Positions 8,772 through 13,052 of a DNA stretch of 64,000 nucleotides are shown piece after piece. Below the pieces are notes generated by a model. The model ran no database searches, was not told where the DNA came from, and saw only the letters and a list, made by a program, of their open reading frames with translations. The translations under genes and the position numbers were made by a program. Each line of letters starts with the position of its first letter. Position 1 is the first letter of the stretch. The stretch is from Halalkaliarchaeum sp. AArc-CO (GTDB taxonomy: Archaea; Halobacteriota; Halobacteria; Halobacteriales; Haloferacaceae). Where the stretch lies: positions 868,001 to 932,000 of the forward strand of contig NZ_CP087723.1 of assembly GCF_024972735.1 (NCBI RefSeq). Reading direction: 5' to 3'.

Positions 8772-9677
8772 ATGCCTCCGAAAATCTCAGTAATCATCGC
8801 CACGTATTATCGGAATAATCTACTATCGGAGGCCATTGAAAGCGTCGCCAACCAGGACTACGAACCCGTCGAACTCGTCGTCGTCGACGATTCGGGTGCG
8901 GAACATGCCCGCCCTGTATTGGAAGCGTACGAGAGTGTCGTGGATCGCCCGATATACCGGAGCAAAGAGGGGGATTGGGGAGCAGCATACACAACAGGAA
9001 TCGCGGCCTCGACGGGCGAGTACGTCCAGTTTCTCGATGACGACGACCTCCTTCTTGACGGGAAACTAACCAAGACGGCTGCAGTCCTCGGGGAGAACCC
9101 TGACGTCGGCGTCTCCTACTGTGGCGTTATCAAAGAAGACGAAAAATACTACCCGAATCCGGACGTGGCTGGCGATATACTGGAGCATACACTGCGATTC
9201 CAGGATTTTCCCCTGTGGACCGGGTCAATGCTCATGGAGCGTGACGTTCTCATCGATTGCCTGCCATTGGCTACGAATGCGGGCGATCCAGATCTGAAGA
9301 TCGAACTGGCAAAACGAACCGAGTTTGATTACGTCGACGAGTGTCTTGCCGTGTACCGGAGAGAAGCGAGTTCGAAGTGGGTTGGGCTGAAGAGGTTCGA
9401 GGAGGTGATGCGGGTCGTCCGAAACCAAAAGGAACTTTACGATCAGTATCCGGAGATCAGACGGTCCGTATTCGCCGACTGGTACGAGAAACAGGGAAAG
9501 GCCTACCTGAAACAGCGCCCGTGGTCACCGATGGCGACCCTGTGTTTCGCCAAATCCGCGTATTATGACGACGAAAACAGGCACATAAAGGCTATCGAGG
9601 CCGCGGCGTCCGTTTTCGGCCGCCTCGGATTGACCGCAGCGAGCCGTGTATACGCAGCCGCAAGGGGAACTCCGTAG
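8772..9677 (+). CDS. Glycosyltransferase family 2
   Basis: 301 residues. GT-A signature: ISVIIATYYRNNLLSEAIES at residues 5-24, VVVDDSG (about 36-42), and the DxD region VQFLDDDDLLLDGK (about 86-99). A C-terminal helical part includes WYEKQGKAYLKQRPW. No membrane helix, so a soluble or peripheral transferase using a nucleotide sugar. The neighbourhood (another GT2, a GT4 and sugar-modifying gene remnants) points to assembly of a surface glycan. Codon use is less GC-biased than in core genes, consistent with an accessory locus. Donor and acceptor unknown. Confidence 0.93.
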   Translation: MPPKISVIIATYYRNNLLSEAIESVANQDYEPVELVVVDDSGAEHARPVLEAYESVVDRPIYRSKEGDWGAAYTTGIAASTGEYVQFLDDDDLLLDGKLTKTAAVLGENPDVGVSYCGVIKEDEKYYPNPDVAGDILEHTLRFQDFPLWTGSMLMERDVLIDCLPLATNAGDPDLKIELAKRTEFDYVDECLAVYRREASSKWVGLKRFEEVMRVVRNQKELYDQYPEIRRSVFADWYEKQGKAYLKQRPWSPMATLCFAKSAYYDDENRHIKAIEAAASVFGRLGLTAASRVYAAARGTP

Positions 9678-10917: not shown

Positions 10918-11215
10918 TTACTGCTCTTCGGGGATCGGATTCTCGACGTACTGGGGTGTGACATCGCGTTCGAGAGTGTCACACAACGTCTCGACGGCCG
11001 TATTGAAGCTGTGTTGTTCGCCTGTTCCCAGGTTGTAGATACCGTCAAGGTCGTGAGCCGCAGCGAGTTCGACTCCGCGAACGACGCCCCTCGACGTGGA
11101 CGAAGTCACGCGTCTGTGTCCCGTCCCCGTAGATCTCGGGCGAGTTCCCGTTTACTATCTTATCGGCAAACTGGGAGATGATAGAGATACGAGCGCATAC
11201 CCCCGCCTTCCCGTG
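10918..11215 (-). pseudogene. NAD-dependent epimerase/dehydratase remnant, frameshifted and truncated
   Basis: Two family-like segments in different frames: ISQFADKIVNGNSPEIYGDG then TQTRDFVHVE (about 11090-11175), and after a small deletion and frame change VVRGVELAAAHDLDGIYNLG then TGEQHSFNTAVETLCDTLE, ending NPIPEEQ at 10918. These are the middle part of a UDP-glucose-4-epimerase-like SDR, with the IYGDGxQxRDFVHV and YNLGTG motifs. The N-terminal Rossmann GxxGxxG part and the C-terminal end are missing. It would have made a nucleotide sugar for the glycan locus. Confidence 0.85.
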
Positions 11216-11220
11216 AGTGA

Positions 11221-11657
11221 CGAGTGTTCCGACGCTCTGTCGGAACCGAGGAGCGAACAGGCGGGGGTCAAGCGGACACTCAGGACACACAAACCACCGT
11301 ACTGTGCCGGGACTGGATGACCGACCAAACGTTTTTGTCGTGCCCCGGCGTACTGGAAACTGCTACGGAATCGGTGAGATGCCGGCCCCCAACAGACAAG
11401 GGGCGGTGACGAACGCGGTCTGTTCGTCACACGGCGATGACATCGATTCCGATGGGGCCTGCGTGACCGGGTCACAGCCCTACAGCGAGGGTGAAAACGA
11501 GAGTTTCGCCGGTATGCTGCCGGTTCCCTCTGAGTGCGGGTTGGAACCGGAATGCCGTGGTTCGGCACGGCAGTCATCCGGTGGCCAGATGCCACGGCCT
11601 TCAGGCCGTGGAGGAGGTCACAACACCGAGAACCATTAAGACCCAACAAGGGCTCTT
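11221..11657. other. Gene-less stretch holding a hairpin array
   Basis: A 140-codon forward frame crosses it (11217-11639), but it has no recognisable domain and is interrupted conceptually by strong inverted repeats. The main content is the array of stem-loops at 11406-11611, reported separately, and the promoter of the next gene. Confidence 0.5.
11406..11611 (+). mobile_element. Hairpin array resembling an IS200/IS605 right end or solo omega-RNA
   Basis: Perfect inverted repeats in order: GTGACGAAC/GTTCGTCAC (11406-11414 with 11422-11430), GTGACC-G-GGTCAC (11463-11475), CCGGTTCC/GGAACCGG (11520-11527 with 11543-11550), TGCCGTG/CACGGCA (11553-11559 with 11566-11572), and CCACGGCC-TTCA-GGCCGTGG (11592-11611). 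The last hairpin, followed by AGGAGGTCA, looks like the right-end hairpin of haloarchaeal IS200/IS605 (IS1341-type) elements, where the overlapping omega-RNA ends. No tnpA or tnpB is seen, so this may be a remnant, a MITE or a solo guide RNA. Orientation is inferred from that likeness. Confidence 0.45.
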
Positions 11658-12359
11658 ATGGGCATGTCCCTAACGGTGGGGGAGGTCCGCCATCTGGAGG
11701 AGATAGCCATTGACTTGCCGATCGATGAGATCCTGGACCGGCCGCCGTTTCCGACGTGGATGGACTCGCGGCATGCAGCGGGGAAACTGCGGGATGCGGT
11801 CGCCGAGGTGCGACCGGCGGTCCTTGCGGAGATCGAACCGCGTGGAATGTACCGAATCCTCGAGACCGACGACTCCGGCATCGCTGCCTACGAGCCGCCG
11901 GAACTCTTGCTGGATGCAGAATACGTCTGTAGCGTGGTCGTAACCGTGGGCGAGCTGTCGGACGAGGAAGACGAGGCGCCGCAACTCTTCGAGGGGTTCG
12001 TTCGCGACGCCGTCGAAAACGTGGCGTTGACTGTCATCACGGAAACCGTGGGCGACGAGATCCGGGACGTCGCCGAGAAAAACGGCTGGAACACCACGCG
12101 GCTGTTCACGCCCGGGGACGGCGGCTACGACTGGCCGCTCTCGAACCGCCGGTACGTGTTCGAAACGCTCCCGACGGATGAGATCGGGGTCTCGCTACTG
12201 GACAACGGCCTGAACGTCCCGAACAAGACGATCAGCGGTGTCGTCGGTATGGGCTCCAGCGTGACCCAGGTGCCGGGATTTCACTCCTGTCTCGGGTGTC
12301 CGATCCTGCAGGAGTGTGACTACGCGGATACATCGGATCTCGCGCCCGTGACAAACTGA
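11658..12359 (+). CDS. Corrinoid-type protein resembling the methionine synthase activation domain
   Basis: 233 residues. The C-terminal half carries the pattern of the B12-dependent methionine synthase activation-domain fold: PGDGGYDWPLSNRRYVFETL, IGVSLLDNGLNVPNKTISGV then VGMGSSV, and a terminal CLGCPILQECDY cysteine cluster common in corrinoid-activating relatives. The N-terminal part has IDEILDRPPFPTWMD. There is no B12-binding or catalytic MetH module, so this is the stand-alone type whose partner is unknown. A TATA-like ATTAAG at 11634-11639 suits a leaderless start at 11658 (ATG at 11664 is an alternative). It converges on an isochorismatase-family gene 18 bp away. Confidence 0.65.
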   Translation: MGMSLTVGEVRHLEEIAIDLPIDEILDRPPFPTWMDSRHAAGKLRDAVAEVRPAVLAEIEPRGMYRILETDDSGIAAYEPPELLLDAEYVCSVVVTVGELSDEEDEAPQLFEGFVRDAVENVALTVITETVGDEIRDVAEKNGWNTTRLFTPGDGGYDWPLSNRRYVFETLPTDEIGVSLLDNGLNVPNKTISGVVGMGSSVTQVPGFHSCLGCPILQECDYADTSDLAPVTN

Positions 12360-12377: not shown

Positions 12378-13052
12378 TCAATTCTTCTTCTGGAGCCGGT
12401 CCGTGACCGCTAAAAGCGGTGTGACGTCGGCATACTTCATCTCCATGTCGAACAGCGACACCTCGTGTGAGACCACCGATCGGTCCGCCACGCACTCCGG
12501 CGGCACGATCATCCGGAAGTTGCTGGAGTGGCCGTCAACCACGGTCGCCCGGACGCAGCCACTCGTCGACATCCCGCAAATGATCAGGGTGTCGATCCCG
12601 TAGTGGTGCAGGTAGTTCGACAGGTGCGTGTCGAAGAAGGCACTCGCACGGGGTTTTTCGAACACCTGTTCGCTCTCCTGCGGTTCAACTTCGGGGGGGA
12701 TCTCGTCGAGTTTCTCTACCCACTGTCGATGCTCCTCGTCCGGCGTTCCCTCGACGGATCGTATCGTTGGCTTCCGATACTCCCGGGGATACGTGCCGGC
12801 GGGTGTCGGAACCGCGTACACGACCGGAACGTCGACGTCCCGCGCCGTCGCCAGGAGCTCCGCGGTCGACTCCACGCACGGCTGGCTGACTTCCGGTCGT
12901 TCTTCGATGAACGCAAGCGTCAGATCCACGACGAGGACGGCGGGCGAATCACCCCATGCGGCGGTCCGCGAAGTTTCCCCCTCCGTCTCGAAGTACTCGA
13001 GGTCCGAATCCGGGATCACGTCCGGGACGTAGTACGCGCCGTTCCTGTTCAT
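12378..13052 (-). CDS. Isochorismatase-family cysteine hydrolase (N-carbamoylsarcosine amidase-like)
   Basis: 224 residues. The family's Asp-Lys-Cys catalytic triad is intact: D43 in VLVVDLTLAF, K133 in FEKPRASAFF, and C166 in GMSTSGCVRAT. A 30-residue N-terminal extension (VPDVIPDSDLEYFE) and the sequence around TSGC resemble the N-carbamoylsarcosine amidase branch more than nicotinamidases, but the substrate cannot be fixed from sequence. Soluble and cytoplasmic. It overlaps nothing; a small gap separates it from the DUF4203-like membrane gene whose stop lies at 13066. Confidence 0.85.
   Translation of the reverse strand: MNRNGAYYVPDVIPDSDLEYFETEGETSRTAAWGDSPAVLVVDLTLAFIEERPEVSQPCVESTAELLATARDVDVPVVYAVPTPAGTYPREYRKPTIRSVEGTPDEEHRQWVEKLDEIPPEVEPQESEQVFEKPRASAFFDTHLSNYLHHYGIDTLIICGMSTSGCVRATVVDGHSSNFRMIVPPECVADRSVVSHEVSLFDMEMKYADVTPLLAVTDRLQKKN

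Follow-up and report, generated by a model that had tools for sequence, protein, structure and literature searches.

PATEs were described in 2011 in Haloquadratum walsbyi. Both PATEs and core-deleted IS605 elements are reported to be common in Haloquadratum; HqIRS71 includes the coding region for the C-terminus of TnpB, and 52-bp versions consisting of the ends only exist and may be mobile (PMC3119063). In ISDra2, TnpB together with an RNA from the right end is reported to cut beside TTGAT, the insertion target, at the excision joint (PMC8612924). The sotRNAs of H. salinarum are described as forming a pseudoknot in which a terminal motif (TEM) pairs with an upstream stretch (PMC12558985). For a PATE in the virus HRTV-DL1, high transcription is reported along some 300 bp at one of its ends (PMC10544981), and the HgcC4 and HgcC5 RNAs of T. 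kodakarensis are transcribed and located apart from transposases (PMC4247193).

We analysed a 64,000-nt window of the genome of Halalkaliarchaeum sp. AArc-CO (NZ_CP087723.1, positions 868,001–932,000, forward strand), and all positions given below refer to this window. BLAST of 10950–11680 against 170 genomes of the family resolved three blocks: an epimerase flank reaching to 11182, a left segment that starts at 11179 and measures about 100 bp, and a right segment at 11361–11620. The block limits against relatives delimit a non-autonomous IS200/IS605 element with a body of 439 bp (11183–11621, plus strand). Its left end (11183–11278, plus strand), also defined by BLAST, carries a subterminal hairpin (11200–11208/11259–11267) and an inserted stem region. 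Its right end is the terminal AGGAGGTCAC (11612–11621, plus strand), the last base of which closes the element. The right ends of relatives have GGAGGAGGTCA followed by A or C in common, and their flanks diverge beyond it. Related elements with both ends measure 346–496 bp with TGAT counted (n = 52). The body holds no TnpA or TnpB gene, as the first-pass annotation had stated. The extent given there, 11406–11611, is too narrow, since the left end follows TGAT at 11183 and the right end lies at 11621. The guide, which had been started near 11612, would for the same reason begin at 11622, and the flanking DNA placed 3' of the right end (11622–11639, plus strand) would supply it as AACACCGAGAACCATTAA.

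The element lies directly 3' of TGAT (11179–11182, plus strand), the target site and expected TAM, which is located by epimerase homology and reading frame. To its left is a truncated sugar epimerase gene (10930–11182, minus strand), recognised by homology to intact epimerases, with the element at its inner end. The farthest matches to intact epimerases, in four genomes (G165, G044, G164 and G167), stop at 11182, the last base of TGAT; the match in G074 is one base shorter, and the other listed ones end earlier, many of them at 11173–11180. These alignment ends come from BLAST with the full query, as the epimerase-only query ended at 11182 by construction. On the minus strand, TGAT continues the reading frame of the epimerase (..IISQF..), which is why we take it as target DNA and 11183–11621 as the body. 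The equivalent bases in epimerase homologues are TGAT in one (L232), GGAT in three, and TGAC and CGGT in others. The insertion site in the window is thus placed by homology and not from an empty site.

Related elements point to the same target. TGAT precedes all 52 copies counted, a figure owed partly to the search pattern, and the base before it is variable (C in 17, G in 16, A in 13 and T in 6). The empty-site analysis covered 22 elements, and L067 alone had a recognisable host gene with a homologue, giving one confirmed case in 22. When its flanks are joined through TGAT, the reading frame of the L067 host gene can be aligned to a Salinibaculum protein (32.6%) with no gap where the two sides meet. 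By sequence comparison, insertion occurs 3' of a fixed short target without target duplication. Copies at unrelated sites have different flanks, and a copy on a Halobellus ramosii plasmid (90.5%) stands in another context. Two genomes (L006 and L012) have a solo insertion in common, with right flanks nearly alike; a few insertions are thus inherited or jointly transferred. At the window site, the missing N-terminal half of the epimerase is absent from the right side of the element. Simple insertion does not explain this absence, and a rearrangement beside the element must have occurred, because the N-terminal half is not found there. The ORF directly after the element (11658–12359, plus strand, 233 residues) has no Pfam or NCBIfam match, and its earlier label as a corrinoid-type gene is unsupported. 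The surrounding genes include a family 2 glycosyltransferase (8772–9677, plus strand) and an isochorismatase-domain protein (12378–13052, minus strand).

The smaller contig of the same genome carries an intact ISH12-like tnpA-tnpB element (G000:C1:146186–148130; L039 2187–4130). Its TnpA matches the NCBIfam IS200 transposase model NF033573 at 160.5 bits, above the cut-off, and Pfam Y1_Tnp at 6e-38; its TnpB matches the NCBIfam guided_TnpB model NF040570 at 127.9 bits, again above the cut-off, and Pfam Cas12f1-like_TNB at 1.7e-17. The left end of the window element is 97% identical to the left end of this element (G000:C1:146184–146285). The right ends were compared through a covariance model, R1, of 157 positions built from 19 solo right ends. 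R1 scores 147.5 bits in the window, 59.7 bits (E 1e-13) over its full length at the right end of the own-genome tnpA-tnpB element, and 33.1 bits at the annotated ISH12 right end. By these comparisons the window element has its ends in common with an IS200/IS605 element, as a PATE does, on the left by 97% identity and on the right through R1. The matches to both autonomous elements support the initial proposal of a solo IS200/IS605 right end, or omega-RNA, without TnpB. The covariance-model search suggested there recovers both right ends, and the many other copies and right-end matches dispose of the chance that the locus has neither relatives nor a counterpart among IS right ends.

R1 matches are widespread among haloarchaea. 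They occur at E 0.001 in 125 of 167 genomes of the family, with 52 matches above 77 bits in 34 of the 167, and at E 1e-17 in 67 of the 392 order-level genomes searched, which fall into 36 of 96 genera. A 19-base core pattern recovers 64 stretches from a collection of 84,980 species; going by title, 60 are haloarchaeal or from haloarchaeal MAGs (one titled 'uncultured archaeon') and four are bacterial. R1 matches 59 of the 64 at 66 bits or above and a Haloquadratum MAG (L172) at 27 bits; the four bacterial stretches have no R1 match at E 1e-4. One solo element (L190) is present in Haloquadratum walsbyi J07HQW2. When the right block alone is used as a BLASTN query against its own genome, the sole match is itself. 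A compact solo element used as query has no match in the phage collection, where the window query matched ISH12 left ends alone.

The strongest R1 matches form a lineage without an adjoining TnpB. Among the 47 family matches above 77 bits that were fetched, five of the 52 being left out, there is no case of a TnpB whose end lies 200 nt or less from the 3' end of the RNA, and six carry a TnpB farther off, within 2 kb upstream. In one of the 47 (L074) just 30 nt lie upstream, so the absence of TnpB there says little; L112 is a truncated copy behind the end of an unrelated element. R1 matches of 55–66 bits have an adjoining TnpB in 21 of 24 cases, a few of these being gene fragments. No adjoining tnpB gene was found at the 40 fetched matches from other families, of which L162 has a 35-residue C-terminal remnant. 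Four of the 83 model matches were omitted, namely L077, which is the same place as L107, and weak second matches in L080, L105 and L114. The tree has a branch with 100/99 support between the 47 solo rows and the TnpB-linked ones, of which 20 out of 22 fall on the far side. Of the two exceptions, L095 has only a TnpB fragment and branches basally on the solo side, and L086b falls within that side on a long branch whose placement is uncertain. Because R1 derives from solo elements, its top score class is biased towards them; a TnpB-linked close relative would nevertheless have reached equally high scores, and the fetched matches include none. The window and its close lineage are not linked to a tnpB gene, and because none adjoins it we file the RNA as an orphan omega-RNA-like RNA, apart from standard omega-RNAs. 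Decay is evident in some of the solo copies. In one genome (G094), four diverged GC-rich solo copies (L107, L108, L109 and L113) have altered right ends and are perhaps decaying or fixed in place.

The right block, roughly two thirds of the element, corresponds to a predicted orphan omega-RNA of about 261 nt (11361–11621, plus strand) that ends at the right end of the element and is defined by covariation among 45 relatives. Pairwise identity, averaged over the 52 elements in which both ends are present, is 83% in 11179–11210, falls to 47% in the spacer (11279–11360), and stands at 81% in 11361–11450 and 85% in 11451–11550; it is 61% in a variable hairpin (11551–11577) and 80% at the right end. 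All five inverted repeats first noticed at 11406–11611 were recovered by a repeat search: 11406–11414/11422–11430 (9 bp), 11463–11468/11470–11475 (6 bp), 11520–11527/11543–11550 (8 bp), 11550–11559/11566–11575 (90% complementary over 10, with a perfect 7 bp inside) and 11592–11600/11603–11611 (9 bp, 2-nt loop). One of the five pairings calls for correction. The 6-bp repeat is probably not a conserved pairing, because its left arm, GTGACC (11463–11468, plus strand), pairs by covariation with the 3' terminus (11616–11621) in relatives to form helix 8. The plus strand of 11400–11640 folds at -111.8 kcal/mol (z -3.46), with none of 200 shuffles as low. Folding alone cannot assign the strand, because the minus strand also folds well (z -3.06; two of 200 shuffles as low). 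Chance hairpins are ruled out by the plus-strand fold together with covariation.

For the covariation analysis, a 90% identity filter reduced 70 elements to 46, and the omission of L115 left 45. Changes on both sides are seen in 39 of 81 base pairs. They amount to 225 cells, compared with a shuffled mean of 80 and at most 71 in the slid control, and the covariation score is 0.236 compared with at most 0.080 in slid controls; the shuffles ignore relatedness, and the slid control allows for it but is lenient towards a structure that comes out of the very alignment being scored. With the two right-end hairpins removed, 32 of 66 pairs and 142 cells remain (52 shuffled, at most 61 slid). A first, smaller alignment agrees, with both-side changes in 22 of 72 pairs. 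The right-end hairpin CCACGGCC-TTCA-GGCCGTGG (helix 17; 11592–11611, plus strand) has five of nine pairs changed on both sides. In helix 8, 97% of cells are paired. Its outermost pair, which links 11463 to the element's final base, is a G-C in the window; over 44 rows it is U-A in 39, G-C in three and unpaired in two. The alignment thus predicts a conserved fold of the type made by a tnpB 3' end and right end, as in omega-RNAs, with a terminal motif that is predicted to pair with an upstream stretch. Compensatory changes are seen in predicted helices that a transposase should not need.

Within the predicted RNA, a remnant of the tnpB 3' coding end (DDIDSDGACVTGSQPYS; 11436–11486, plus strand), no longer part of a gene, was identified by comparing its reading with the TnpB C-termini GDDSAEDGASLTGPQDSQ of L039 and GDDISRDGSACD of ISH12. 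A protein-coding role was rejected, as frame and length are not kept between copies. Length modulo 3 is 0 in 28 relatives, 2 in 14 and 1 in three, and the TnpB frame is open in 28 of 45, which has little meaning at such G+C. Six rows (L040, L140, L152, L165, L166 and L200) carry a hairpin-rich insert of about 55 bases at one position, between GATGGGG and CCT, and two TnpB-linked matches (L123 and L097) are longer by about this amount. This insert is possibly a small mobile repeat, comparable to the SMR-A elements for which insertion into PATEs is reported.

Upstream of the conserved block, the consensus of 34 non-redundant spacers, less than 70% alike, contains a BRE/TATA-like promoter motif, which in the window reads CCAAACGTTTTTG (11325–11337, plus strand). 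TTT within an 8-base window peaks at 68% of spacer rows, compared with a mean shuffle maximum of 21%, and CRNAA within 10 bases at 50%, compared with 8% (n = 34 in both cases); none of 500 shuffles gave peaks as high. The T-run peak lies 27–30 bases ahead of the conserved block, at about -30 to -27, with CRNAA just upstream. The archaeal TATA box sits at such a spacing from the start of transcription. With the window motif at 11325–11337, a start near 11361 is expected. The consensus suggests a promoter for the RNA that points along the RNA strand. The spacers have a second T-rich peak near -45.

We read the element as a PATE with a promoter of its own for an orphan omega-RNA, mobilised by TnpA and working with TnpB in trans at its excision scar, and we put the probability of this reading at about 0.6. 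Sequence comparison establishes insertion 3' of TGAT, both ends, RNA homology to TnpB right ends, a conserved structure and a TnpB-less lineage. The element and its predicted RNA structure are well supported; action in trans we infer to be likely, by analogy with described systems. The element would have lost tnpA and tnpB while retaining the transposase-recognised ends and the guide-RNA segment. A promoter at about 11325–11337 would drive a transcript from about 11361 through the scaffold to 11621 and into the flank, and this transcript would be an omega-RNA with the 3' flank as its guide. The Y1 TnpA of a related element, for example the one on the smaller contig, would excise the element and move it as single-stranded DNA. 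TnpB made elsewhere would bind the orphan RNA and cut TGAT joined to AACACCGAGAACCATT, which is the excision scar. This target would exist only after excision, because the occupied site has no TGAT next to the guide. Repair from a sister copy would then restore the element, which would be a guide-RNA-only parasite of the TnpA and TnpB of other elements. A second genomic target for the guide was rejected, as 11622–11639 finds only its own site in its own genome with up to three mismatches.

The own-genome tnpA-tnpB element is the likely source of both proteins in trans. An L039-like TnpB is present in 87 of 164 family genomes at a threshold of E 1e-60. It occurs in 25 of 34 solo-bearing genomes and in 62 of 130 others (p 0.011), a comparison in which overall IS load is a confounder and the genomes sampled differ slightly; the remaining 9 of the 34 have none at that threshold. 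The solo RNAs are clearly distinct from TnpB-linked RNAs, so that recognition by an L039-type TnpB cannot be taken as given.

Alternatively, the element might have arisen by deletion and be passive: TnpA would move this PATE in trans, and its RNA-like part would be a leftover without a present role. The decay of some solo copies fits such an origin, as do the PATEs and core-deleted IS605 elements reported to be common in Haloquadratum, end-only versions of 52 bp included (PMC3119063). We consider it unlikely, since about 190 nt beyond the end hairpins are kept at 81–85% identity against 47% in the spacer, and compensating pair changes occur there in a lineage with no adjoining TnpB. The conservation might also serve DNA hairpins used by TnpA and not an RNA. 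IS200/IS605 ends are indeed recognised as hairpins (PMC7290912), and compensation is strong in the right-end hairpin, helix 17. It persists, however, without the two right-end hairpins and spans a 5' domain that lies about 170–260 nt away from the end, and the promoter-like motif has the orientation of the RNA strand; a purely DNA-level role is therefore very improbable.

A host-recruited regulatory RNA, in which the solo omega-RNA would guide a dead or living TnpB-like protein, or another RNA-binding protein, to host sites, would fit the element's own promoter-like motif. Such a role would also suit the few flanks common to different genomes (the L006/L012 pair, and one repeated guide among 52) and the transcription of HgcC4 and HgcC5 apart from transposases reported in T. 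kodakarensis (PMC4247193). Flanks, and hence guides, nevertheless differ almost everywhere, the window guide has no second genomic site with up to three mismatches, and most copies retain intact mobile ends. We regard recruitment by the host as improbable, less so than the hairpin explanation but more so than passive descent.

Returning to the orphan omega-RNA working in trans, a wider claim can be put forward tentatively, at somewhat less than even odds: that these elements are a guide-RNA-only selfish lineage of orphan omega-RNAs, each with a promoter but none with a TnpB of its own, which has diversified across an archaeal order. Resident elements would supply the TnpB, to which the lineage lends guides, and the TnpA, to which it lends ends; the host's TnpB might thereby come to guard many insertion sites at once. 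Lists of PATEs, as relatives of transposons that code for no protein, go back to 2011, and strong transcription of a virus-borne PATE has been reported without a known reason. If PATEs are orphan guide RNAs of TnpB, this would give them a function and explain why far more than the ends is retained. A cell's TnpB may then carry many guides originating elsewhere, and whether guide RNAs alone can be selfish elements using a nuclease in trans becomes testable.

PATEs and haloarchaeal omega-RNAs are both known; the open-licence literature searched yielded no description of PATEs as a diversifying TnpB-less guide-RNA lineage and no paper recognisable as joining PATEs to TnpB guide RNAs. Stand-alone IscB omega-RNAs, with the guide RNA apart from its nuclease, are reportedly included in the 2021 OMEGA paper; they are alike in having a separate guide RNA and differ in nuclease family. 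A known Rfam family at threshold was rejected. The nearest, HgcC (RF00062), aligns over its full length and has the 3' GGAGGAGGUCA in common, but scores 29 bits against a gathering score of 50. ISH12 of phage phiH (MK002701) has the same left-end architecture, with 86% left-end identity, and resembles the right-end RNA weakly; it is autonomous with tnpA and tnpB, whereas the window element encodes neither Y1 TnpA nor TnpB.

The HRTV-DL1 PATE resembles the window element in being solo, with an ISH12-type right end and strong transcription, but its reads are reported as antisense to ORF3, opposite to the predicted RNA strand (PMC10544981). Its match to R1 is more distant (20.9 bits, E 3e-6 in 1.1 kb); it ends in the ISH12 motif, the predicted RNA strand ending in ..GAGGATGTCAC. 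The kit named for HRTV-DL1 has a directional form that reads the complementary strand, and the read direction may agree with the prediction if the library was of this kind. Described TnpB omega-RNAs or reRNAs are alike in overlapping both the tnpB 3' end and the right end, in the right-end hairpin and in the pairing of the terminal motif (PMC8612924, PMC12558985). They are also alike in a guide 3' of the element and a TAM equal to the insertion target, TTGAT there and TGAT here (PMC8612924). The window RNA differs in having no attached tnpB and an apparent promoter of its own. The PATEs of Haloquadratum walsbyi are likewise transposase-free, with near-terminal palindromes resembling IS605 ends, and are presented without a guide RNA in the account drawn on here (PMC3119063); the element in the window, by contrast, contains a predicted covarying RNA and belongs to an order-wide lineage without adjoining TnpB.
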